23,601 bases of DNA from a virus. The notes under the pieces are model-generated. The model did not search any database. It saw only the letters and a program-made list of their open reading frames with translations, and was not told where the DNA came from. The DNA lies in the IMG/VR virus record IMGVR_UViG_3300030098_001028, positions 1 through 23,601 of that record; one strand, 5' to 3'. Positions 11,101 to 23,552 of the stretch are shown here, piece after piece. The position numbers and the translations under genes are program-made. Position 1 is the stretch's first letter; each line of letters opens with the position of its first letter.

Positions 11101-11512
11101 TCCTAGTTCGTCACCAACTTGGAGTGATTGGCAGCAGATAGTTAATGGGTTAGTAAGAGCTAGAGGATTACAATTTAGAGTTAAATTAACAAGTACAAAT
11201 GTTGATCAAAATATTGCAATTAGAAGACTTGGGATTACTGTTGAGCTTCAACCTAGAACGGAAAGTATTACTAATGCAGTTACAACGGGTTCAGCTCCAT
11301 ATCAAGTTAATTTCGCCCATGGTTTTTACCAACCGCCTAGTGTTTTTATCACGCAAGTAGCTAGCAGTAGGGAAGTTGGTGATTATCCTGAAATAGATAA
11401 TATTACTCGCACAGGTTTTGAAGTAACATTTAAGAATACAGCCAATGACAGTAGCCATGCCCGATCATTTGTTTGGGGAGCGTCTGGCTTTGGTAATCAG
11501 GTATCAGTATGA
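8153..11512 (+). CDS. J: Central tail-tip / host-specificity protein gpJ-like
   Basis: At 1119 residues it is close to lambda gpJ (1132). After a Gly-rich start ('KGGGGGG') come 'DLLSEGEIGGLVDG..SIFLNNTPL' and 'YPNCALVGIKIDAEQFSSIP' (about 240-260), then 'DPAWILYDLLTSSRYGLG' (about 300-317), all typical of gpJ hub domains. The middle holds 'VINQLCSVFRAQAYWQAG'. Residues from about 640 onward contain fibronectin type III-like segments ('TAPPTDVTGVTLTP'), and the C-terminal domain differs from lambda, as expected for the receptor-contacting end. The product is the tip hub that closes the tube and extends as the central fibre. GAGGTG precedes the ATG. The stop overlaps the next gene in ATGA. Confidence 0.9.
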   Translation: MANFVIGSGGDSKGGGGGGSTAKDNLESAQFGRVLDLLSEGEIGGLVDGKKSIFLNNTPLQNADGSENFKNVTYLDRVGTSSQTVIPLTENTSTVVNTGFSTVNKGTIDENGNLTPTPRIVQIAASDPPIDAVKVTISVPQLQKITDDGDIEGSEIDLEIAVQYSGGSYQTKVSGDNGKIKGRTGDLYQKEYLINLDGAFPVNIKVTRITDDSTNPKLVNAFQWNTYTKIIYDSRTYPNCALVGIKIDAEQFSSIPKRTYLIKGKTVQIPHNATVRSNGSLQYSGTFNGTVGGAEVTNDPAWILYDLLTSSRYGLGTDPVTNAGYLAEADLDKFSFYAASQYCSEQITYTLDGSTVTEPRFTCNVNIQTAQEAYTVINQLCSVFRAQAYWQAGSVALTQDSPQDTSYLFSIANVLEPGFTYQTSSQKNRTTVAVVRYFDNELRDYGYEEVKDTAAIAKYGSIVKNIDAFACTSRAQAQRLGKWLLYTENNEREICSFVTSIDAGVVCRPGQIIEIADEMRAGSRRAGRIKSATTTAITVDDATGLVASSSPTLSAILSDGSVETKPISSISSGVVNLSSGFSSAPNANTLWVYQNSSIQTSTWRVVSVEEQDGINYAVTAVSYNSSKYSNIESGISLTTRNVTNLNVAPAAPAAVQGFDSDGNAYTHPAIDTTELIYENLGSARVKIIVSWINNTADAYVRFRYNNNDWQSRIAEKTKQIEILDVVAGTYEIEVYSVSASGLRSVNPATKTHTAIGKTAPPTDVTGVTLTPIDQERGLLQWDQSTEKDVLIGGKVLIGQSTNGSARWADATIVLEQDGNTTSAEVPLLPGLNAYLIKFKDDGGRISTGPSSNLIADWDATKATVIMPSVTDRLFVQFVDEHTANFTGTKTNTTYDSTLDSLKLSVSNNATAASGEYYFANSVDLNQIYDVNLTRELVSFMFDDESLWDSKSALIDTWGLIDDEVALTSSDCNAVVEYRATNDDPSSSPTWSDWQQIVNGLVRARGLQFRVKLTSTNVDQNIAIRRLGITVELQPRTESITNAVTTGSAPYQVNFAHGFYQPPSVFITQVASSREVGDYPEIDNITRTGFEVTFKNTANDSSHARSFVWGASGFGNQVSV

Positions 11513-12543
11513 CTAATCTAAGAGATTACATTATCGACAATGTAAGTGGGTCAGCATTTAGAACAGAGCTGAATCAGATTTTAGGAGACATACAAACTAC
11601 TAATTCAGGACCATCAGCACCAACAACAACGATTGCTTACAAACTTTGGGTTGATACGACTAATAACAAATTAAAGATTAGAGATAGTGGTAATAATAAT
11701 TGGATAACACTTGGTTCAATTTCTGAAAATCTTGGTTTAGCACCGACAGAAAATCCGCAATTTACAGGTAAATACATAAGGATACCCTCTGGAACCACAG
11801 CTAATAGACCTTCCTCGCCTGATGAGGGAGACGCACGATTTAATACAACAACCAAATTACTTGAATTTTTTGCTGGTACAAATTGGTCAACTAACGGCGC
11901 AAAACTTGACGTTTTTACCTTCACGGCAAACAATGCAACTCAAACATTTACACCTCAAGAAGGCCGATCATTTTTCTTGGTAATTTGCACAGGAGGGGGA
12001 GGTGGTGGCTCAGGTGTAACAGTTCACGGATCGCCTTCAAACTATTGGGGCGCACCTGGTGGAGGATCAGGAGGGACTGCAATCAGAGGTTATACGAGAG
12101 CCGAACTTGGCACATCCGCAAGTATTGTTGTTGGCTATGGTGGAGCTGGTGGAGTAGCTGGAGGTGGTTTCGGAGGCAATGGAGGAGCTAGCTCTTTTGC
12201 ACCACAAAATCAAAATAGTAGTACTTTAAATGCAACAGCGGGTAGTACTTCTCTTCCTGCATACGATACTTCAGCCGCCGCTTCAGATATGGGCAGACCT
12301 GGAAATCGTGGTTTTGCAACTGGGGGGCAGATAAACCTTGCTGGAGACAAAGCCGAATTTCAAACAATTAATAATTATACTGGGACTACTGCAAGTGGAA
12401 TAGATATAGTAAATATGCAATCATCGGGAGGCTCTAGCTTTTGGGGAAAAGGGCCAGGTTCTGGTGCCGATGGTAATTGGTCTAATGTAAATGCAGCGGG
12501 GGCAGCGGGAACAGATGGAATAGTTGTTATTCTTAGTTTTTAA
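11509..12543 (+). CDS. Tail fibre protein with glycine-rich adhesin domain
   Basis: This 344-residue protein has three visible parts. Residues 1-85 form an N-terminal region likely to attach to the hub. Residues about 90-128 form a fibre module, 'IPSGTTANRPSSPDEGDARF', shared with the end of the 1329-residue fibre. Residues from about 155 to the end are glycine-rich: 'TGGGGGGSG', 'GGGSGG', 'GYGGAGGVAGGG' and 'AAGAAGTDGIVVILSF'. The last part resembles the glycine-rich fibre domains annotated Gly_rich_2, and more loosely the polyglycine sandwich adhesins of some phages. Glycine-rich loops suit variable host contact. It starts in an ATGA overlap with gpJ, so the two are likely translated together. 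Confidence 0.75.
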   Translation: MTNLRDYIIDNVSGSAFRTELNQILGDIQTTNSGPSAPTTTIAYKLWVDTTNNKLKIRDSGNNNWITLGSISENLGLAPTENPQFTGKYIRIPSGTTANRPSSPDEGDARFNTTTKLLEFFAGTNWSTNGAKLDVFTFTANNATQTFTPQEGRSFFLVICTGGGGGGSGVTVHGSPSNYWGAPGGGSGGTAIRGYTRAELGTSASIVVGYGGAGGVAGGGFGGNGGASSFAPQNQNSSTLNATAGSTSLPAYDTSAAASDMGRPGNRGFATGGQINLAGDKAEFQTINNYTGTTASGIDIVNMQSSGGSSFWGKGPGSGADGNWSNVNAAGAAGTDGIVVILSF

Positions 12544-12604: not shown

Positions 12605-12946
12605 ATGGCAATAGCACCAGGAACGTATAATATGACGATCCAGCGAAGATCGGATCATACTATAAGTATTAACTTAAAGGACTCAAACAATGCTGCCATT
12701 AATTTGACGGGATGTACATTAACCTCTCAAATTTGGGATACTAATCGTACTACTAAAGCAGCAGATGCAACTGTAAGTATTACTAACGCTTCAGGTGGTG
12801 TATTCACATGGAGCGTGACTGATACTCAAACAGCCACGTTTGCCGCTGATGAGTATAGATACGATGTTCTATTGACTAATGCTTCGGGACTGAAAGAATA
12901 TTGGTTAGAAGGTATCATTTACATGGATGAAGGATACACCTCATGA
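12605..12946 (+). CDS. Small Ig-like / BppU N-domain-like baseplate or fibre-attachment protein
   Basis: The 113-residue product is almost all beta-strand: '[20 protein letters not shown]', '[15 protein letters not shown]', '[15 protein letters not shown]' and '[17 protein letters not shown]'. This follows the plan of small phage proteins ('rGdt....l.d..g.p.dLTG......i') related to the N-terminal domain of lactococcal BppU, which anchors receptor-binding proteins. It overlaps the collagen-like fibre gene by 4 bases (ATGA), which fits a role as adaptor or cap for that fibre. The 61 bases upstream contain a weak promoter-like pair (TTGTGA at 12564, TATAGG at 12585, 15-base spacer) that I would not rely on. 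Confidence 0.55.
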
Positions 12947-15900
12947 CCTCAGTCAATGTCACAACAAATAAAAACACGGTAACTGTTAACGAGGACAATA
13001 GTTCAGTTATTACCGTAGTCAGTCAGGGGCCACAAGGACCACAAGGTATCCAGGGTGAGACGGGTATAGGTTCGGCTACTGTAAGTATTGGAACTACCTC
13101 TACTGGGAACGCTGGGACGGACGCTTCTGTTAGTAACACTGGTACGGGAACAGCAGCAGTATTAAATTTTACGATTCCGAGGGGGAATACAGGATTAACA
13201 GGACCAACTGGATCGCAAGGTTCACAAGGAATACAAGGTGAGACAGGCGAGACAGGACCAACGGGACCCACTGGTCCTCAAGGAAGTCAGGGATTAACTG
13301 GAAGTACGGGGCCACAAGGTATTCAAGGCGAGACAGGTCCGACAGGACCCACTGGCCCTCAAGGAATTCAAGGGGCTACTGGGAACACTGGGCCACAGGG
13401 AATCCAAGGAGAGAAGGGAGACACAGGAGATACAGGCTCGACAGGACCTCAAGGCCCACAAGGGATTCAGGGAGTACAAGGAAATACAGGTGCTACAGGA
13501 GCTTTTGGTGGTGCGACTTTTGACTATACATTCGATACTTCAACCGTTGATAGTGATCCAGGTGCAGGTAAAGCAAGATTTAACAACGCAAATATTTCGT
13601 CGGCTACTCTTTTATATATAGATGACACTGATGACGGTGGAACAGATGTCCAAGCTTATTTAAGGACAATTGATGATTCTACTTCGACAATAAAAGGGCA
13701 TTTCAAAGTATCAAATAAAACTGATCCTAACGACTTTGCACTGTTTACAATTTCAGCGGCAACTGAAGCCACTGGATACCACAAAGTAACTTGTGCTTAT
13801 GTTTCTGGTTCGACTTCTTTTAGTGCAAGTGAAGATATTGTTTTAACTTTTGCGAGAACTGGAGACAAAGGCGATACAGGACCAGCAGGTGCAGCGGCAA
13901 CTATTACTGTAGGTTCTACGAGTACAGGAAGTGCAGGATCTAACGCTTCTGTTACTAATAGTGGTTCGTCTAGTGCTGCGACTTTTGACTTCACGATACC
14001 AAGAGGAGACACAGGAGCGACTGGTCCACAAGGTATTCAAGGAGCTACTGGTGCTACTGGACCTCAAGGGATTCAAGGAGCGACGGGTGCGACGGGTGCG
14101 ACGGGTTCGGCAGGTGCTGATGGAAAAACACTTTTAAACGGTTCTGGTGTTCCTGGCTCAGGGCTTGGAGTTGACGGAGACTTCTATATAGACACAGCAA
14201 ACGACAATATATATGGTCCAAAAGCTAGTGGAGCATGGGGGAGTGGAACATCATATTTACAGGGTGCGACTGGAGCGACTGGAGCCACTGGCCCACAAGG
14301 TAGTGCGGCTTCTATAGCTCTGGGAACAGTTAGCACAGGTGCGGCAGGATCAAGCGCGTCAATCACAAATAGTGGTAGTTCATCGGCTGCTACTTTTAAT
14401 TTCACTATCCCAAGGGGAGATACTGGAGCAACTGGTCCCGCAGGTCAAGATGGTGTAGGTATTACGGCTGGAGACAAAGGGGATGTCACAGTTTCGGGAA
14501 CAGGCAACAATACATGGACTATTGATAATGAGGCGATTACTAATGCAAAAATATTAGATGACACAATTGCAGAGTCAAAACTAGATATTCATGCAGCTCC
14601 AAGTGGTACTAACAAGTTTTTAGGTTATACAGCAAATGGGATGGAGTGGGCTGTTCCTCCAGACACCAACACAACATATTCAGTACAAGATGGCGAATTA
14701 TCTCAGAATAATTTCACTGATGCGTTGAAAACAAAGCTTGATGGAATTGCTACGTCTGCGAATAATTATTCCATCTCTTCTGATTTGCTTGATGAGGATA
14801 ATATGGCGACTAACTCAGCGACTAAAGTTCCCAGTCAGCAGAGTGTAAAAGCATACGTTGATGCCAATAGTTCCGATACAACTTACACAGCAGGAACAGG
14901 TCTGCAATTATCTGGGACGCAGTTTTCAGTAACGTCTCTTGCTCTTACAACAGTTCAGGAAGCGGCTAACGAAACGGCCATGCTTGCGTTAACAACTCAA
15001 GAGGGTGATGTTGTTGTTCGTACTGATGAGAATAAAACCTATGTGAAGAATAGTGGTAGTGCTGGAACGATGGCAGATTTCACTCTGCTACGGACCCCGA
15101 CTGATGCTGTTCTTTCTGTTAATGGGAATACTGGAGCAATTACAGCAGCCCAAATCGCAAGTGCAGTTGAAGCGGCTTCGGATTCAAATACTTTCACGGA
15201 TGCAGACCATACAAAACTAGATGGAATAGAAGCTAGTGCTACAGCAGACCAAACAGGGGCAGAGATCAAGACCGCCTACGAAGCCGAGTCAGATACAAAT
15301 GCCTACACAGATGCAGAAAAAACTAAGTTAGCTGGTATAGAAGCTTCAGCTACTGCTGATCAAACTGGCGCAGAAATTAAAACTGCTTATGAGGCAGAGG
15401 CTGACACTAATGCTTTTACTGACACGTTAAAAACAAAGTTAGATGGTATTGCTACAGGCGCAGAAGTAAACGTTCAAAGTGATTGGAACTCTTCTTCAGG
15501 TGATTCTCAAATACTTAATAAGCCAACAATCCCAACCAATACAGATACAACTTATTCAATCTCTTGTGTTGATGGAGACAATACAGATGAAGAGAAGATT
15601 CGTCTAACCGCTGGAGGTGACGGAAGTGGTACAGATGATGTTGTTCTTGAAGCTGGTACAGGTTTAAGCATTGCCAGATCAGGCGATAAGATTACTTTTA
15701 CAAATACGCAAACCACATCAGGCACTGCAGATTTAGCAACCGAAATTACAGTTACAGCTAATAACTCAACTGATGAAACTGTTTATCCATTATTTGCTGA
15801 TGGAGCAACAGGTAGTCAAGGAGCAGAGACAGATACAGGTTTAACTTATAACCCAAATTCAGGTGAGTTAACTGCTGAAAAATTTCTAGCTAGTGGAACA

Positions 15901-16932
15901 ATTGGAAGGGTTCAAGCAGACAATAGCCTCGCATTTTCAAGTGGTGGAACGGAACATCTCCGTGTAGATACCGATGGAAGGTGCATTGTGGGAGGCGGTA
16001 CTCATTCAGGTGATTCAAACCTCGTCGTTAAAGGTGATAGCAACTTAGATAGCAACAATCATGCAGTATTAGGTTTGTTCGGAGACGCAGTAGTTTCAGC
16101 AGCAAACACCGAATTAGCACAATTAAAATTTGGTGCTAGCAACACAAATACTGGCAACGCACAGATTCGTGTTAAGTCAGATGCAGCATGGGGAAGCGGT
16201 GATTTTCCAACAGCAATGTTGTTTGAAACAACGCCTGATGGGTCTGACATAATGACAACTGCCCTAACTTTAGACAGCTCACAAAACGCTACGTTTGCAG
16301 GGACGGTTACAAGTACTGGTTTAACAGTCGGTACCAATAAACTTTACGTTAACACTACGACTGATTGGGTTGGTATTGGGACTACAACCCCTGTTGGAAC
16401 TTTAGATTTAGGGAGTTCAACTAACAGCGTAGGTCTATTTTTCCATAACAGTGTTACAGGAAGCTCTAACAACGATGGAGCATACATTCAATTAGCAAGT
16501 CCAAGTTATTCACAACATGATCTATCTATAGTTAACAGAGAAACTGGGTCATTGGTATTAGGAACAGACGAAACAACTGCCCTGACCATCGACAGTTCAC
16601 AAGATGCCACTTTTGCAGGGAATATTTTGATGAGTGGAACAGGTGTTATTGATATACCTGCAGGCACAACAGCACAAAGACCTGCATCAGGAGATACAGG
16701 GATGTTTAGATATAACACTACCCTTGATCAGTTTGAAGGTTACTCCTCTACTGGATGGGGAGCTATTGGTGGTAGTGTAGAGACAAAAATATTAGAGACA
16801 CCTCAAACTATTAGTCAGAACTTGACTCTTACATCTAATAAAAACGCTTTATCAATAGGTTCTGAAGTTGCCGTAGCTAATACTTATAATGTAACTGTTC
16901 CCTCTGGCTCTAGTTGGAGCATTTCACAATAA
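12943..16932 (+). CDS. Large tail fibre protein with collagen-like repeats
   Basis: The 1329-residue protein is a modular fibre. Gly-X-Y collagen-like tracts occur at about residues 28-42, 81-187, 306-316, 354-394, 440-453 and 491-504 and would form rigid triple helices, so the fibre is probably a trimer. Between them sits a roughly 40-residue beta module in three copies (about 44-84, 316-356, 454-494), each ending 'F(T)IPRG'. Residues about 590-850 contain several '[11 protein letters not shown]' segments and a pair of 37-residue repeats. The C-terminal third has a beta-rich module with '[15 protein letters not shown]' twice (near 1105 and 1210) and a final '[16 protein letters not shown]' block. 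No intramolecular chaperone peptidase was recognised at the C-terminus. It starts in ATGA overlap with the small Ig-like gene and ends in TAATG with the next fibre gene. Confidence 0.85.
13072..14424 (+). repeat. Three copies of a 40-residue fibre module between collagen tracts
   Basis: Copies lie at about 13072-13194, 13888-14010 and 14302-14424. Their common protein pattern is 'V/I-x-x-G-x-x-S-T-G-x-A-G-x-x-A-S-(V/I)-x-N-(S/T)-G', then 'AA', an aromatic/aliphatic strand and 'F(T)IPRG(D/N)TG', which leads into a collagen tract. Copies two and three are closest to each other. Such modules are common in phage collagen-like fibres and are prone to recombination. Confidence 0.75.
15223..15444 (+). 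repeat. Tandem 37-residue fibre repeat, strongly recoded at DNA level
   Basis: Two adjacent units (15223-15333 and 15334-15444) begin with the same 22 residues ([12 protein letters not shown], then [10 protein letters not shown]). My codon comparison finds 15 of these 22 codons different, all synonymously. The units also share DTNA and KTKL further on. Related '[11 protein letters not shown]' segments occur at 14728-14760 and 15430-15462 in this gene and at 17211-17243 in the next. Confidence 0.8.
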
Positions 16933-17594
16933 TGGCTTACGGTTCTATAAAGGTTGACAAAATTATCACTGATAATGGCAGTGGTACAGACATTGAGTTA
17001 ACGCTTCCAAGTGCAGCCCCATCGGCTGCGGGTAAAGTTTTAAAAGCTTCTTCAACACCTACAACCCTTGAATGGGCTGATGATTCTGCTGAAACAAACT
17101 TAACAGCTACAGCTTCAGGTACGGCTTTAACAGTTGTTTCCAGCTCAGGCACTAATGTTGATTTACCAGCAGCTTCTACATCAGCTTGGGGCGTGATGAC
17201 TGATGAGGACAAGACAAAACTTGACGGTGTTGCGACTGGTGCGACAGTTGGAGTTGAGGCCACTGGTGGCACGTTTACGGGTTCAGTTGTCTTTGAAGAT
17301 GCAATTAATGAAAATGTTTTTGCAATAACTGATGCAGCCAGTGTTGCGTTAGATCCTGATAATGGTTTGATTCAGACGTGGACTTTAGGTGCCAGCCGTA
17401 CCGCAACAGATTCATTGACATCAGGGCAATCAATGATGCTAGTTGTCACAGCGTCTAGCAATAGTATTACATGGCCTACGATTCAGTGGATTGGTGGTAC
17501 AGCTCCTACTTTAAGCTCTTCTGGTACAACAGTAATTGAGTTATGGAAAATTAGCTCTACACTCTACGCAGCCGCTATTGGTGATCCTTCCTAA
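16932..17594 (+). CDS. Fibre protein, cyanophage '[11 protein letters not shown]' type
   Basis: The ATG at 16932, which overlaps the previous stop by one base (TAATG), was chosen over the TTG at 16914; it gives 220 residues starting '[20 protein letters not shown]'. From memory, this N-terminus is common in fibre or virion proteins of marine cyanophages and uncultured marine phages. Further on are 'LPSAAPSAAGKVLKA', a 'DEDKTKLDGVATGA' segment shared with the large fibre, and a beta-rich C-terminal domain with 'SLTSGQSMMLVVTASSNSIT' and 'IQWIGGTAPTLSSSGTTVIE', like capping domains of phage fibres. It may be the distal part of the preceding fibre, encoded as a separate protein. Confidence 0.68.
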   Translation: MAYGSIKVDKIITDNGSGTDIELTLPSAAPSAAGKVLKASSTPTTLEWADDSAETNLTATASGTALTVVSSSGTNVDLPAASTSAWGVMTDEDKTKLDGVATGATVGVEATGGTFTGSVVFEDAINENVFAITDAASVALDPDNGLIQTWTLGASRTATDSLTSGQSMMLVVTASSNSITWPTIQWIGGTAPTLSSSGTTVIELWKISSTLYAAAIGDPS

Positions 17595-17596
17595 TC

Positions 17597-18973
17597 ATGA
17601 GAAATCATGCGGTAAGAAGTTCTCTAGCTTATGTTCCTGCTACGGTTCCGTGGAACGAGCATGAACCAATACATATCTTATCTACTGAAGATAGTTCAGG
17701 GAATCATTATCTACACGGGTTTAACATTAATGGTGGAAGAATTGGCACTCTAGAGTTATCACAAGATGATCTAAATGGAGGTCAATATTTTATATGGAAA
17801 GGATGTGTTGTCCTATTCCCAGAAATGACTGATAAAAGATGGTATATCATTGATATTGCTACTTGGACTGAAAAAGCCACAGGCGATCTAACACATACTC
17901 TAGGGAAGGCTGTCCCTAGTATTAGGTATGCATCAGGAAATAATCTTTCTTTACAAGGGATGCTTTGGACAGGAGATAATGCATCGTGTCGTATGAATAT
18001 ACATCGGATAACAGTAAGTATAAGTGCGCCTAATACCTATACGGTAAGTTCTTCAAATGGTGCAACTTACAATCCAACTTCAAGCGGTGACGGTGTTGCT
18101 TATTTTGTCCATAGCAATGGACACACAAATCATTCAGAAGATACTTACTTAGACAATATGTCCCAAACGAGAGGAACAATAGGCTTTTTTAATAGGACAA
18201 GAGGTTCTTATACGTCTTTATCTTCTCGTATGGTTTGTATGTCTAACAATGGAAATGCAAAGACAGTTAGTTTCTTTACAACTAGTACAGCTGGAGCAAT
18301 ATCTAACGTGAAAACCAATGTAATAGAAGGTAATGCTTCTCGTAGTTTTGGTATTCCGATTGATACGTCAAGAGCTTTAATATGTGTCTTTGATAAAATG
18401 TTTTATGTCACAGATACAACATCAAATCCAAGTGGAGATTTTGATGATAAAGAATTTGATATTCAAAATGCTTCGGCGGATGGTGTGTCTTGGAGTGTTG
18501 TTAATCTCTGGGAATATGGTGCCCATAATGATGGACAAGCATTTGCTACTAGCAATGGTAGATTCTACATTTTGATGAAAAACAATGGAGGTGGCTCGAC
18601 TGGCGGTTGGAACTACAAGTATGGATATGTTTCAAGTATGTCGGCTGGAGACAAAACACCTACTTTGTTAGCTGGAGATTATAAGCCTATTGCTAAATAT
18701 AATTCTATTCCTTTAAATTCTATCGTTCAGGCAAATGAAAATGGTTATGTTTCTATTGCTGTAGGCAAGGTGACAAGTTGGGACTCAACAAATGGGACTA
18801 ATTGGAATGGAGTGGTGGAGTTTAGACATTTTAATGGTGACACTCAAGTAGGAACGACACAAACGGGAACAATTCCCGCTCAATATATTGGCGGTGAATT
18901 TAATCAGAATTGGCAATACTCAACAGCCGATAGAGGGAGTAACCTTATGTATAGCGGTACTGCTTTAAGTTAA
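17597..18973 (+). CDS. Putative receptor-binding protein 1 with MRNHxVR N-terminal tag
   Basis: I do not recognise the family of this 458-residue protein. It begins 'MRNHAVRSSLAY', nearly the same as two later genes (19416 and 20510) whose remaining sequences are unrelated. The rest is rich in Ser, Thr, Gly, Asn and aromatic residues with many predicted short strands, as in beta-propeller or beta-sandwich adhesins. Examples are 'GGRIGTLELSQDDLNGGQYF', 'KRWYIIDIATWTEKATGDLT' and 'NGRFYILMKNNGGGSTGG'. No transmembrane segment is visible. It is followed two bases downstream by a tail-fibre assembly chaperone, a strong contextual sign that it is a fibre or receptor-binding protein. The start follows the previous stop by two bases. 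Confidence 0.6.
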   Translation: MRNHAVRSSLAYVPATVPWNEHEPIHILSTEDSSGNHYLHGFNINGGRIGTLELSQDDLNGGQYFIWKGCVVLFPEMTDKRWYIIDIATWTEKATGDLTHTLGKAVPSIRYASGNNLSLQGMLWTGDNASCRMNIHRITVSISAPNTYTVSSSNGATYNPTSSGDGVAYFVHSNGHTNHSEDTYLDNMSQTRGTIGFFNRTRGSYTSLSSRMVCMSNNGNAKTVSFFTTSTAGAISNVKTNVIEGNASRSFGIPIDTSRALICVFDKMFYVTDTTSNPSGDFDDKEFDIQNASADGVSWSVVNLWEYGAHNDGQAFATSNGRFYILMKNNGGGSTGGWNYKYGYVSSMSAGDKTPTLLAGDYKPIAKYNSIPLNSIVQANENGYVSIAVGKVTSWDSTNGTNWNGVVEFRHFNGDTQVGTTQTGTIPAQYIGGEFNQNWQYSTADRGSNLMYSGTALS

Positions 18974-18975
18974 CT

Positions 18976-19419
18976 ATGGCTGAATATAGAAGGCGATCAG
19001 ATGGCTTGCTTGTAGAAGGCGATCACGAGTTAAGAGCTGCTAGCCCTAATGTAAGTTTTCCTTCTGATTTAAAAGAATCAACTTTAAATGCTCTTGGGTG
19101 GGACGTAGTGCAAGAAACGCCTCAACCTACTACTACTGTTTATCAACAAGTGGTTAGAAATGGTGTTGTTAAAGATTCCCTTAAAAGATGGAAACAACAA
19201 TATGAAATACATGAACTTAACAAAGAGGACATTGATCGTTTAGTAGGATCTGATGTCAGAGATGAAAGAAATGAGTTATTGAAGGAAAGCGATTGGACGC
19301 AGAATAGAGATGTCACATTGTCTAATGATGCTGAGTGGAGAACTTATAGAGAAAACTTAAGGAATATACCGACTCAAAGTGGTTTTCCTCATAACGTTGT
19401 GTGGCCTACTAGACCATGA
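18976..19419 (+). CDS. Tail fibre assembly chaperone-like protein 1
   Basis: The C-terminal 60 residues of this 147-residue protein are diagnostic: 'RNELLKESDWTQNRDVTLSN', then 'WRTYRENLRNIPTQSGFPHN' and 'VVWPTRP'. This is the conserved domain of phage tail fibre assembly / tail assembly chaperone proteins (Phage_tail_APC-like), which help fibres fold or trimerise. The N-terminal half carries 'SPNVSFP' (about 24-30), also found in the second chaperone (21341), and a variable middle presumably contacts the client fibre. It lies directly behind putative receptor-binding protein 1 and overlaps the next tagged gene by four bases (ATGA). Confidence 0.78.
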   Translation: MAEYRRRSDGLLVEGDHELRAASPNVSFPSDLKESTLNALGWDVVQETPQPTTTVYQQVVRNGVVKDSLKRWKQQYEIHELNKEDIDRLVGSDVRDERNELLKESDWTQNRDVTLSNDAEWRTYRENLRNIPTQSGFPHNVVWPTRP

Positions 19420-20510
19420 GAAATCATTTTGTTAGGAGTTCATTAGCCACCTCAACAGCAGAAATCCTTGATGTAGATGAGGTTTTTGGGGCGGTAGCAT
19501 ATTCAGGAAATGGTTCGACAAGTGGTAAGGCTTTAACCTTTGGGGCTGGGGTAGATATGCTAGGTAAAGGTGGTATGGGCTGGGTAAAATGCCGTGAAGA
19601 TGGCAGTACAAGCCACATCATACAAGACTCAGAAAGAGGCTTAGGAGAAAGTAATTCTTCTTATGGATATACAAAAATTCTCCTTGCAGACCAAAACAGA
19701 AGTGAAGGATATAATCAATATCCCCAAGGTTTTATAAAAGAACTTACAAGCACTGGTTATAAAGTTGCGAGGGGAAGCAGTAGCACGTCTAACGATGGAG
19801 CAAACAAGGTATCGCATGATTATGTTGCTTATGCCTTTAGAAAGGCTGCAGGTTTTTTTGACATCAAGACTTGGACAGGAAACGGTGTTTCTGGCAGAGA
19901 AATTGCACATGATCTAGACAGCGTTCCTGGGGCCATTTGGATAAAGAAAACCAGTGGTTCAGCGGATTGGTGGTGTTATCACAGACAAACAGCAAGCTCG
20001 TCACCAGAAGATTATTATTTAGTACTTAATGAAACGGATTCAAAAGTAAATCAATCGTCTTTTATGAATGATACGGCCCCGACTTCAACGCATTTTACTT
20101 TGGGAAATTCTGACAATGTTAATGGAAACAGTCAAACCTATGTTGCATATATTTTTGGACATAATGATGCTCGCTTTGGTTCATCTCAAGATAAATCTAT
20201 AATCCATTGTGGAGGCTATTACGGAAACGGTAGTACTAACGGAACTACAGTTAACATTGGATGGAGACCCCAGTTCCTAATTTTTAAAAATCCTAGTAAT
20301 TCTTCTATGCACTGGAGGATGTATGACACGGAAAGAGGTATTAACGCAGGAAATGACCCAAGGCTTATGCCAAACACCGATGAGGCAGAGCAGAATACAT
20401 TCGATAAATTAGATTTAACATCAACAGGGTTTCAAACACAGCACACAGGAAGTGATATGAATCAGAATAATACCTTGATTACTTATATTGCTATTAGGGA
20501 GGCTTGGTAA
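19416..20510 (+). CDS. Putative receptor-binding protein 2, MRNHxVR tag and three DUF7483-like repeats
   Basis: The 364-residue protein starts 'MRNHFVRSSLAT'. The remainder seems to be three divergent tandem repeats of roughly 105-125 residues. They open with 'AVAYSGNGS' (about 26-34), 'IKTWTGNGVSG' (about 150-160) and 'CGGYYGNGSTNG' (about 265-276), and close with 'YVAYAF' (136-141), 'YVAYIF' (242-247) and 'ITYIAI' (355-360). Each also carries a motif such as 'GAIWIKK' or 'QFLIFKN', followed by an aromatic segment. From memory this matches a domain frequent in marine phage fibre proteins (DUF7483-like), of unknown exact ligand. It overlaps the previous chaperone by four bases, and its stop overlaps the next ATG. 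Confidence 0.65.
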   Translation: MRNHFVRSSLATSTAEILDVDEVFGAVAYSGNGSTSGKALTFGAGVDMLGKGGMGWVKCREDGSTSHIIQDSERGLGESNSSYGYTKILLADQNRSEGYNQYPQGFIKELTSTGYKVARGSSSTSNDGANKVSHDYVAYAFRKAAGFFDIKTWTGNGVSGREIAHDLDSVPGAIWIKKTSGSADWWCYHRQTASSSPEDYYLVLNETDSKVNQSSFMNDTAPTSTHFTLGNSDNVNGNSQTYVAYIFGHNDARFGSSQDKSIIHCGGYYGNGSTNGTTVNIGWRPQFLIFKNPSNSSMHWRMYDTERGINAGNDPRLMPNTDEAEQNTFDKLDLTSTGFQTQHTGSDMNQNNTLITYIAIREAW

Positions 20511-21319
20511 TGAGAAACCATTACGTTAGAGCAGCAGCAGCAGGTGGTGGCGATACTTTCGTAACTGATAATTTAGTCTTTCATCTAGACGCTGCGAATA
20601 CAGATTGCTATTCAGGTAGTGGAACAACGGTTAATAGTTTAGTTAATAACCATACGAATGATCATTGGGGAGATATGGAGTGGTCTAGCGATAGCGGTGG
20701 AAATACAGGAGGTTATTTTTATGTAGATGGTACGCAAAATACAAGCCTGCAATTTCCATATTCAACAGATTTTGAGATGATGGCTTATGCGTCAGGAAAT
20801 TCTACTGTTACCGTTACAGACTATTCGTGGGAGTGGTGGTGGTATGGAGATGACGTTCCAGTTGACGGAACTGTAGGTATGTATTTTGCTTTTTTGAGGG
20901 CTACCAATGATGGAGAAGTTAGTGGTTCCGATCTTTCCCAGAATAACCTTGGTGGTTATATGTTTTATAGAACTGCCAGCGATCAAGAACGGTTCTATGT
21001 AAGACAAGCTAGTTCCGTAAATACAATTGTAAAGAGTTCGCATACGTGGAGTGGAAGCAAATGGCAGCATTATGTCTTAACTAGGTCAGGAAATAATCTT
21101 AAATTTTATATAGATAATGGAACTGCTAACACTGCGACTCAAACACCTCCTTCCTCTAATAACTACTCAAACACCAAAAAATTCAATATTCTCACTGTTT
21201 ATGGTAATAACCATGAATTTGAGGGAAGGCTTGGTGTTATGCGTTTTTATCAAGGTAAAGCTTTAACAGCAGCCGAAGTTGAACAAAACTATGATGCAGA
21301 GAAGTCAAGATATACTTAG
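20510..21319 (+). CDS. Putative receptor-binding protein 3, MRNHxVR tag and LamG/concanavalin-like lectin domain
   Basis: ATG 20510 was preferred over TTG 20504 because AGGGAGG (20496-20502) sits seven bases upstream, and because the protein then begins 'MRNHYVRAAAAG' like its two neighbours; length is 269 residues. The body is a laminin G / concanavalin A-like beta-sandwich: 'DNLVFHLDAANTDCYSGSG' at the start, 'YSWEWWWYGDDVPVDG' in the middle, 'SKWQHYVLTRSGNNLKFYID' (about 183-202) and the typical ending 'GRLGVMRFYQGKALTAAEVE'. Such domains often bind glycans, so recognition of cell-surface polysaccharide is likely though not shown. The stop is 21 bases before a second fibre assembly chaperone. 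Confidence 0.75.
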   Translation: MRNHYVRAAAAGGGDTFVTDNLVFHLDAANTDCYSGSGTTVNSLVNNHTNDHWGDMEWSSDSGGNTGGYFYVDGTQNTSLQFPYSTDFEMMAYASGNSTVTVTDYSWEWWWYGDDVPVDGTVGMYFAFLRATNDGEVSGSDLSQNNLGGYMFYRTASDQERFYVRQASSVNTIVKSSHTWSGSKWQHYVLTRSGNNLKFYIDNGTANTATQTPPSSNNYSNTKKFNILTVYGNNHEFEGRLGVMRFYQGKALTAAEVEQNYDAEKSRYT

Positions 21320-21340
21320 CATAAGAACAAAGTCTTTATC

Positions 21341-21862
21341 ATGTACGTCAAATTAAAAGACAACGCTGTTGAAAAATTTCCTTATTCAATAAGCGATTTA
21401 AAAAAAGATAATCCAAACGTCTCGTTTCCTAAGATTTTTTCTAGTGAAATAATGGAAACTTTCTCACTTGCGGATGTGACTGTTGATGCAAAACCTTCTT
21501 TTAATTCAGTAACACAAACAGTTTCACAAAAAACAAATCCTGAACTTATCGATGGCAAGTGGGTATTGAAATGGGATGTAAACGATAAAGCTCAATCTAT
21601 TGTTGACCAAGACAAATTAAATGAACAACGAGAAATTAGAAGAAAAAGGAATGAGCTACTATCTCAATCTGATTGGAGTATTAATAGTGATAGTCAGTTA
21701 ACTGAGGATGAAGTAACGAAATGGAAAACATATAGACAAGAGTTGAGAGACGCAACAAAGCAAACTAGTTTCGCAGGTTCTTCTACTGCCCTGCCTTTTG
21801 TTAGCTGGCCCACAAAACCAGCAACTACAACCCCACAACCTGATCCAGAAGACGTAATATAA
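21341..21862 (+). CDS. Tail fibre assembly chaperone-like protein 2
   Basis: This 173-residue protein repeats the plan of the chaperone at 18976: 'NPNVSFP' near the N-terminus (about 24-30) and a conserved C-terminal domain 'RKRNELLSQSDWSINSDSQL', 'WKTYRQELRDATKQTSFAGS' and 'VSWPTKP'. The two are clearly paralogous at both ends but diverged in the middle. It also has a Thr/Pro-rich tail after the WPTKP motif. Its place after putative receptor-binding proteins 2 and 3 suggests it serves one or both of them. Confidence 0.75.
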   Translation: MYVKLKDNAVEKFPYSISDLKKDNPNVSFPKIFSSEIMETFSLADVTVDAKPSFNSVTQTVSQKTNPELIDGKWVLKWDVNDKAQSIVDQDKLNEQREIRRKRNELLSQSDWSINSDSQLTEDEVTKWKTYRQELRDATKQTSFAGSSTALPFVSWPTKPATTTPQPDPEDVI

Positions 21863-21948: not shown

Positions 21949-22152
21949 ATGATTAAGATTCTCACCTATATAAATACAGCCTCACTTGTTTTGGCTGTAT
22001 CTGTTGGTACGTTGGCTTACTTTAATCGTGGCAAGATTACAGAATCTATAATGAGTGAAGTGCAAAAGCAGTTGCCTTCTCTTGTTAAAGGAGCAATGCC
22101 ATCAATACCAAGCGTCCCGTCATCAACTGGCCCTGTGCTTCCTTTTAAATGA
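21949..22152 (+). CDS. Small single-span membrane protein
   Basis: The 67-residue protein has one clear hydrophobic helix at about residues 8-25 ('INTASLVLAVSVGTLAYF'), then 'NRGKITESIMSEVQKQ' and a Pro/Ser-rich tail ('PSIPSVPSSTGP'). From memory, cyanophages carry similar short proteins with an N-terminal helix followed by a low-complexity Pro- or Gly-rich tail near virion genes. Size and topology also fit a holin or spanin-like protein, but no endolysin is present in the window. A short inverted repeat GGAAA/TTTCC (21932-21944) lies just before the start. The stop overlaps the next ATG (ATGA), so the two genes are probably coupled. Confidence 0.6.
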   Translation: MIKILTYINTASLVLAVSVGTLAYFNRGKITESIMSEVQKQLPSLVKGAMPSIPSVPSSTGPVLPFK

Positions 22153-22706
22153 TTCAATTCAAGTCATTTAACGGCCTAACTTCTCTTGTTCTGGGCGGTG
22201 GTTTAATTGCTACGAACTTTATGAGTCTTTCTTTGCTGGCTCGTAAGGATGGAGGCATCCCTGACATAGCAAAGCTTTCCAATACTCCTTACAGCAGTAT
22301 TCAAATTAGAAGTGAGACTGGTGCTGATGGTGCAGAAGAGTGGAGTTTTGCAAGCCGTCAACACGATCCAAAAACAATGTTGTTCTACGAAGATTCAGAA
22401 CAACCTACATTTAATGGTGGTGTAAAGAAAAAACATATCCATAAAGAATCAGTTGCTCAGTTTGCAATTTTCCCTAAAGGAGAGGGCGGGACACTTACAG
22501 CAAAACAGATTGAATGTATTGAAAAACAAGCTCAAGGTAGAAGTAATGGACAGATGATTGCTGATGCTGGATCGGTTCAGGTGACACCAGCCTTGGCAGG
22601 GGTTCCAATTGTAGGGCCAGTATTAGCAGGAATATTTTTTGGTCAAGCTAGAAAACAAGTAGGAAATGTTGCTAGTGATCTTGCTGGTCAATGGAACGAC
22701 TGCTAA
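22149..22706 (+). CDS. Membrane-associated protein of unknown function, cyanophage-type
   Basis: The 185-residue protein has two hydrophobic segments, at about 9-30 ('GLTSLVLGGGLIATNFMSLS') and 147-165 ('PALAGVPIVGPVLAGIFFG'). They flank a soluble middle of about 115 residues that includes 'KKKHIHKESVAQFAIFPKGE' and 'LTAKQIECIEKQAQGRSNGQ'. I cannot assign a function. It is coupled to the upstream small membrane gene by an ATGA overlap, and its stop is directly followed by the next ATG (TAAATG). The tight coupling of three membrane proteins suggests a complex, either in the virion (membrane passage of DNA) or for lysis. Confidence 0.6.
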   Translation: MIQFKSFNGLTSLVLGGGLIATNFMSLSLLARKDGGIPDIAKLSNTPYSSIQIRSETGADGAEEWSFASRQHDPKTMLFYEDSEQPTFNGGVKKKHIHKESVAQFAIFPKGEGGTLTAKQIECIEKQAQGRSNGQMIADAGSVQVTPALAGVPIVGPVLAGIFFGQARKQVGNVASDLAGQWNDC

Positions 22707-23552
22707 ATGGAAATAGAAGATATTTCTGTTAGGGAGATACCTGAAGCCTCGATTGATACAACATTTATTTCTACACCTGATCCTGTAATACCTAACAACA
22801 TAGGTTTTCCGATTATTCAAATGCCTGGCTGTGTAAGGGCTAGGACATTAACGAATAAAAATCTTGTAACTTCAGATCCATCGGGGAACTTTTATGTCTG
22901 TGATGGCAATATGCCAACGCTTGAAAGTATGGCTGTTGACTGGGACGGATTTACTGCTGTTGAACCTGAGCAAGAAGAAGTAGTAGAAATAAAACCTCCA
23001 ACTCCTAAAATTGTTCCTCCTGTTAAACCAAAGAAATCAAAAAGGAAGAAGAGAAAGGAAGTGGAAGAGAAGGATGGCAAAGATAACGAGGAGGGAAATA
23101 CCGATGTAGGGCAACAAGATCTAAAAGCTCCAACTATTGATGGACAGTTTATTGTAACTAAACTTCCTTGCCCGCCTTTAGATACACTTGCTAAAACTCC
23201 TGTTGGTTCGTTAGGTAAAGGAGGACTTGCAAGAATTAAAGGATGGAAAAGAGATGAACTTACAGGTAAGTGTGAAACGGTATGGGAAGGCTTAAATCCT
23301 ATAGAGATAGCAGGGAATTACGCTCCACAGCCTACGGTTCTTGTTAATACATCTGCTATTGCAATTACATCAGTTATTGGTGTTACTGTCATTGGTCAGC
23401 CGATAGCTAAACTTTTTCAAAAACAAATTAAAGGGCAAGTTAAAAGCTTATCTAAGAAAATTACTAAAAAGCTGTTAGCTATTCGGGGGAAGAAGCCTCC
23501 TGTAAAGTCCCTCGCTGATAGGAGAAAGGAGCAGAGGGATTCTCGGAAATAG
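22707..23552 (+). CDS. Cyanophage-type structural or membrane-linked protein with Pro/Lys-rich linker
   Basis: The 281-residue protein starts 'MEIEDISVREIPEASIDTTF' and continues 'ISTPDPVIPNNIG'. From memory this resembles uncharacterised proteins encoded next to structural genes in marine cyanophages; I could not verify this. Residues about 90-135 form a Pro- then Lys/Glu-rich flexible linker ('KPPTPKIVPPVKPKKSKRKK') reminiscent of periplasm-spanning linkers. The second domain follows at about 140-205, then a hydrophobic segment at about 211-230 ('VLVNTSAIAITSVIGVTVIG') and a very basic tail. Four cysteines (42, 65, 155, 189) are placed in pairs on the two domains. It is the last complete gene in the window. 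Confidence 0.6.
   Translation: MEIEDISVREIPEASIDTTFISTPDPVIPNNIGFPIIQMPGCVRARTLTNKNLVTSDPSGNFYVCDGNMPTLESMAVDWDGFTAVEPEQEEVVEIKPPTPKIVPPVKPKKSKRKKRKEVEEKDGKDNEEGNTDVGQQDLKAPTIDGQFIVTKLPCPPLDTLAKTPVGSLGKGGLARIKGWKRDELTGKCETVWEGLNPIEIAGNYAPQPTVLVNTSAIAITSVIGVTVIGQPIAKLFQKQIKGQVKSLSKKITKKLLAIRGKKPPVKSLADRRKEQRDSRK

Follow-up and report, generated by a model that had tools for sequence, protein, structure and literature searches.

The stretch of DNA analysed here (the window) comprises 23,601 nucleotides, positions 1 to 23,601 of the IMG/VR virus record IMGVR_UViG_3300030098_001028, and harbors an array of three genes, the products of which share the N-terminal peptide MRNHxVR (the tag, or head). 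Tagged adhesin candidate 1 (17597–18973, 458 amino acids) starts with MRNHAVRSSLA, candidate 2 (19416–20510, 364 amino acids) with MRNHFVRSSLA and candidate 3 (20510–21319, 269 amino acids) with MRNHYVRAAAA. The heads MRNHAVR, MRNHFVR and MRNHYVR, putative plug peptides, occupy positions 17597–17617, 19416–19436 and 20510–20530, respectively. Verification of the open reading frames (ORFs) and their ATG starts confirmed that the three MRNH[AFY]VR starts, noticed in a preliminary description of the sequence, are real and exactly placed. At the junctions with the respective preceding gene a 2-nucleotide gap, an ATGA overlap and a TAATG overlap are found, in this order.

Situated directly 5' of the first tagged gene is the gene of a small fibre protein of 220 amino acids (16932–17594), the proposed partner of the tag, the C-terminal domain of which (residues 108–220, positions 17253–17591) is termed socket B. 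Upstream of it lies the gene of a large collagen-like tail fibre (12943–16932), recognised by a match to Collagen in Pfam and by numerous matches to tail fibres in PHROG. Two further genes, APC1 (18976–19419; E = 1.4e-20, 73.3 bits) and APC2 (21341–21862; E = 6e-16, 58.5 bits), encode PF16778 tail assembly chaperones, both passing the gathering score of the family (26.6 bits). All of these genes and features lie on the plus strand.

Unrelated bodies behind a common tag

Behind the tag, the three proteins are unrelated in sequence, as had been supposed. Profile comparison with hhalign aligns families 1 and 2 over residues 1–15 only, which is the tag, and yields a weak N-terminal match between families 3 and 2 (27%), the convincing part of which is again the tag; between families 1 and 3 no alignment was obtained. 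The 19416 protein, previously described as a triple DUF7483-like repeat, in fact consists of a single DUF7483 domain (PF24299) spanning residues 23–362 (E = 3.8e-44). The LamG-like character of the 20510 protein is borne out by a match to Laminin_G_3 (PF13385, E = 1.6e-11), and the 458-residue protein encoded at 17597 stays unrecognised, with no match in Pfam or PHROG and no credible one in the PDB, which was searched with its family. Its sole known relative is the copy in the related contig G002 (74%).

A search with a permissive nucleotide pattern of the tag led to two further phage contigs, G001 and G002; most other matches to this pattern were chance ORFs and were discarded. G002 possesses the same three tagged genes in the same order and a gpJ 87% identical to that of the window. 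G001 carries two tagged genes, encoding a DUF7483 protein, located before APC1, and a LamG protein. The slot before APC1 is thus filled by the 458-residue protein in the window and by DUF7483 in G001, and it follows that the body in slot 1 varies beside a conserved neighbour: despite the differing body, APC1 is 70% identical in G001, and APC2 is 84% identical. In the small fibre, the first ~100 residues of the window and G001 proteins can barely be aligned, whereas over the last ~110 the identity is 83%. The cassette common to both phages has the final ~105 residues of the large fibre as its start and includes the small fibre gene; residues 1223–1327 of the large fibre match the G001 fibre at 50%, and the rest of it is not common.

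Two mutually exclusive pairs of socket and head

A scan for MPIQQ-type starts gave 100 stretches in viral contigs. Nearly all full-length genes of this type lie directly behind fibre genes that encode the same C-terminal domain, here called socket A, which a single scan confirmed in 333 stretches of the viral collection. The heads behind the two sockets are accordingly referred to as class A (PIQQxxLG-type) and class B (M(R/TL/IL)[SN]Hx[LV]R). For a survey of their pairing, loci were retrieved blindly, that is by the socket's own peptides, and the start of the downstream gene was read afterwards.

Retrieval with socket B yielded 61 viral loci, in which 45 of 47 distinct genes behind the socket start with a class-B head and none with a class-A head. 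Behind socket A, all 69 distinct genes bear a class-A head (68 by pattern, and that of L255 by a GTG start, VSPIQQMLLG) and none a class-B head. Cross-pairing between A and B was not seen (Fisher p = 2e-38 for A/B specificity). Both class-B misses come from locus L166: one is a miscalled start, the true start being MRSHRLR, and the other is the head MTNKFILAAAGG. This locus contains two tandem socket-B genes, the off-consensus head standing behind the second.

The socket is C-terminal without exception (174/174 ORFs for A, 73/73 for B, 247/247 in total). The fibres which bear it possess many different N-termini, some being long single fibres, and the small fibre is preceded by varying genes. 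Homology between sockets A and B could not be detected (0.4% in hhalign); moreover, socket B has no Pfam relative and neither socket profile has a credible PDB match. The genome collection contributed a single match to socket B, weak and partial, in Flavobacterium. Diverged phages with 60–75% socket identity keep the head motif, and a short divergent head is also borne by the gene behind the socket in GenBank phages with divergent sockets (S-CREM2, CRP-1, S-B28, S-CBS2, and phages of Sphaerotilus and Limnohabitans), these short heads being hydrophobic or basic in the cultured phages. The pairs are gp115/gp116 in S-CREM2, gp42/gp41 in CRP-1 and gp052/gp053 in S-CBS2.

Away from the sockets the class-B head is rare. 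Of the ORFs with at least 90 amino acids in the collected loci, 1,942 lie elsewhere than immediately behind a socket; only six of these bear it, five being further members of tagged arrays, and for this reason the MRNH[AFY]VR starts exceed chance.

The bodies, in turn, are exchanged between the heads. The LamG body encoded at 20510 recurs in L033 at 62%, where it bears the class-A head MSPIQQLLLGTG instead of MRNHYVR, with the boundary between head and body at VTDNLVFHL. LamG and DUF7483 bodies are found behind both heads. Single-linkage clustering separates the bodies into 12 clusters in class B and 13 in class A, and the body types across the classes comprise LamG, DUF7483, Gly-rich and beta-propeller proteins, the Gly-rich bodies being limited to some class-A heads.

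Proposed mechanism of adhesin attachment

We consider it likely that MRNHxVR is an N-terminal plug, which fixes a separate adhesin to the cognate socket B of the upstream small fibre at the fibre tip. The protein encoded at 16932–17594 would form the distal tip, and its C-terminal socket B would take up, by physical binding, the N-terminal peptide of the adhesin encoded by the next gene. Behind the plug, an Ala/Gly/Ser-rich linker would be followed by any of many unrelated bodies, which are predicted to bind the receptors. Three equal plugs might then compete for one socket, and their incorporation would give rise to virions with one or several specificities.

The idea of a common docking peptide on swappable bodies, put forward in the preliminary description, is strongly supported at the level of sequence. 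Neither observation named there as refuting it was made: related phages carry the tag on proteins of fibre type as well, and the bodies fail to align over their full length. That several adhesins are carried together, as also suggested there, is plausible for the window with its three tagged genes, but it is exceptional: more than one tagged gene per socket was found in only four loci, and the three plugs per socket of the window phage and G002 are unusual.

PF16778 chaperones and the chaperone-cap alternative

A PF16778 gene follows 38 of 42 testable class-B adhesins (class-B loci among L139–L199), as opposed to 4 of 86 class-A adhesins. This distribution suggests that the chaperone assists the connector or fibre of class B and is not tied to a particular body. 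The PF16778 proteins are probably class-B assembly chaperones irrespective of the body.

The same association bears on the possibility that the tagged proteins themselves cap the upstream fibre only transiently, as chaperones like T4 gp38 or those of Alteromonas phage fibres, bound to it by the head and released before completion of the virion. Their genes occupy the same position as those of fibre chaperones, and marine phages are known to possess fibre-capping chaperones (PMC10579305). However, class B is already adjoined by its own PF16778 chaperone, three such proteins per fibre would be redundant, and 12 and 13 unrelated body clusters appear too diverse for one chaperone task, which renders this explanation unlikely.

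Location of the docking site

The preliminary description had placed the docking site at the tail tip, with gpJ as a candidate partner. Docking to gpJ is not supported by the sequences, because G001 has the cassette without a gpJ-like gene: none of its genes from the tape measure to the fibres is similar to gpJ or to the neighbours of gpJ. The cassette is hence common to phages that differ in their tail-tip genes, and G001 holds both cognate pairs, class A and class B. A distinctly unlikely alternative is that the tag docks elsewhere in the virion, on gpJ or on the large collagen-like fibre, and that the adjacency of the socket reflects mere linkage. The part of the large fibre in common with G001 would fit such a site, but G001 lacks a gpJ relative, and it is the socket domain which forms the constant neighbour of the tag, whereas upstream genes and fibre N-termini vary.

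Selection on the head peptide

In a comparison of 80 distinct genes of the MPIQQ type and 39 class-B genes of the MR type, key positions of the head proved invariant in amino acid, while their codons vary synonymously; the invariant Arg7, for instance, is encoded by AGA or CGT. The tag copies of the window differ in the same manner (AAT/AAC, GTA/GTT, AGA/AGG), and G002 adds CGG. These synonymous differences indicate that the peptide, and not the DNA, is conserved. Moreover, genes 2 and 3 stand apart from the socket gene, with their tags 1.8 and 2.9 kilobases away from it, and therefore adjacency fails to explain these tags.

On these grounds two further readings were rejected. If the head were a functionless recombination anchor, or a hitchhiking 5' end travelling with the socket gene, the adjacency and co-inheritance of socket and first head as well as the change of body directly behind the head would be accounted for; the invariant amino acids on varying synonymous codons, the remote tags of genes 2 and 3 and the retention of the motif in phages with divergent sockets (60–75% identity) make this very unlikely. 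An element of translation initiation or regulation, conserved in its nucleotide sequence, would fit the location of the head at the starts of genes that overlap their predecessor or almost adjoin it, but is hardly credible in view of the synonymous codon variation, including AGA vs CGT for Arg7, and of the wholly different class-A and class-B heads.

Attachment of the tag to socket B is further supported by head and socket distances, which correlate where the bodies of the pairs are unrelated (r = 0.54, p = 5e-4); as socket and first plug are adjacent and co-inherited, this correlation is inflated. Other points weigh against the attachment. The N/S to W/F covariation amounts to about two changes on the tree and was rejected as strong evidence, being mostly the result of one or two ancestral changes. 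The L166 head MTNKFILAAAGG is the sole true exception in class B. Finally, AlphaFold2 (AF2) models of adhesin 1 (458 residues) and of the socket-B protein reached a predicted local distance difference test (pLDDT) score of only 30 and 38, respectively, and were too poor for use.

Neighbouring genes and related loci

Directly behind the cassette, three small genes (21949–23552; 67, 185 and 281 amino acids) are conserved in G001 and G002 and more weakly in L033. The fibre motif IPxGTTAxRPxSxDxGxxRxNTTxxxxE is present in two fibres of the window, encoded at 11509–12543 (residues 90–126) and in the C-terminal part of 12943–16932, and is also found in fibres of G001 and G003. The best matches of gpJ are to Prochlorococcus siphophages (35–39%), and because of these matches a picocyanobacterial host appears possible.

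A third pair of socket and head may exist in CRP-4, CRP-13, CRP-603 and Mel-JY34, as judged from few records. In L018, L291, L292 and L293, fibres end in a WPxxxAPxLT...DGGxxWxGFxAG domain and have heads like MATKKKLLQAAAG or MSNVKKLMMTAASAG behind them, possibly likewise a third pair. In L148 (4000–5568), the frame before the second tagged gene begins like a chaperone (AIIDGTTVK), ends like socket B (STLYGATVGGLG) and is perhaps a recombination scar.

Implications and comparison with known systems

How marine phages swap their host-recognition proteins is poorly known, and unrelated bodies make adhesins hard to spot. A head together with a recognisable socket provides a sequence rule to find adhesin genes in uncultured viruses, and the pairing represents a testable assembly code that predicts the adhesin for each fibre. 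In the open-access literature, no description of the tag strings, MPIQQ, the pairing rule or the socket domains was found, nor was any virion proteomics. Beyond the window, we lean slightly towards a general scheme, in which marine tailed phages of different morphologies would share a few mutually exclusive plugs, each with its own C-terminal socket; PF16778 proteins would aid class B, unrelated adhesins would be exchanged, and some phages would load several per socket.

In its role, the proposed plug comes closest to gp38, which sits on gp37 in T2-type phages, and to the tailspike peptides of SP6/K1-5 and KP34, with their 7 and 11 residues. In T2- and S16-type phages the gp38 gene lies directly 3' of the fibre gene, and in the same way the first tagged gene lies directly behind the socket fibre gene, the tip of which its adhesin would cap. 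PP01 gp38 became functional on gp37 of T2 only once its first 113 residues had been exchanged for those of T2 (PMC12892980). As with gp38 of T2, PP01 and S16, the tagged proteins would be separate adhesins with an N-terminal attachment part specific to their own fibre tip. However, the attachment part comprises about 7 residues here, the bodies are unrelated, and several adhesins per plug type occur in some phages. Moreover, the bodies of the window (the 458-residue protein without relatives outside G002, DUF7483 and LamG) are not poly-glycine-II sandwiches.

Receptor-binding proteins of SP6, K1E and K1-5 (7 and 11 residues) and of KP34-type phages (MALxxLV) share a short N-terminal peptide, presumed to mediate their attachment to an anchor (PMC6872550). 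The three proteins of the window similarly share the 7-residue peptide MRNHxVR, which differs from the MALxxLV heptapeptide (PMC6872550). In those phages the anchors are N-terminal anchor or T4gp10-like domains and the bodies are depolymerases, unlike the bodies of the window; the putative anchor described here is the C-terminal domain of the adjoining fibre gene. In the Alteromonas phages V22 and A5, a fibre module is exchanged among distant phages together with its cognate chaperone cap (PMC10579305). Both cases involve exchange of marine fibre modules with a cognate partner protein, but the partner is a chaperone in the Alteromonas phages, whereas unrelated lectin-like bodies are found under one head here.
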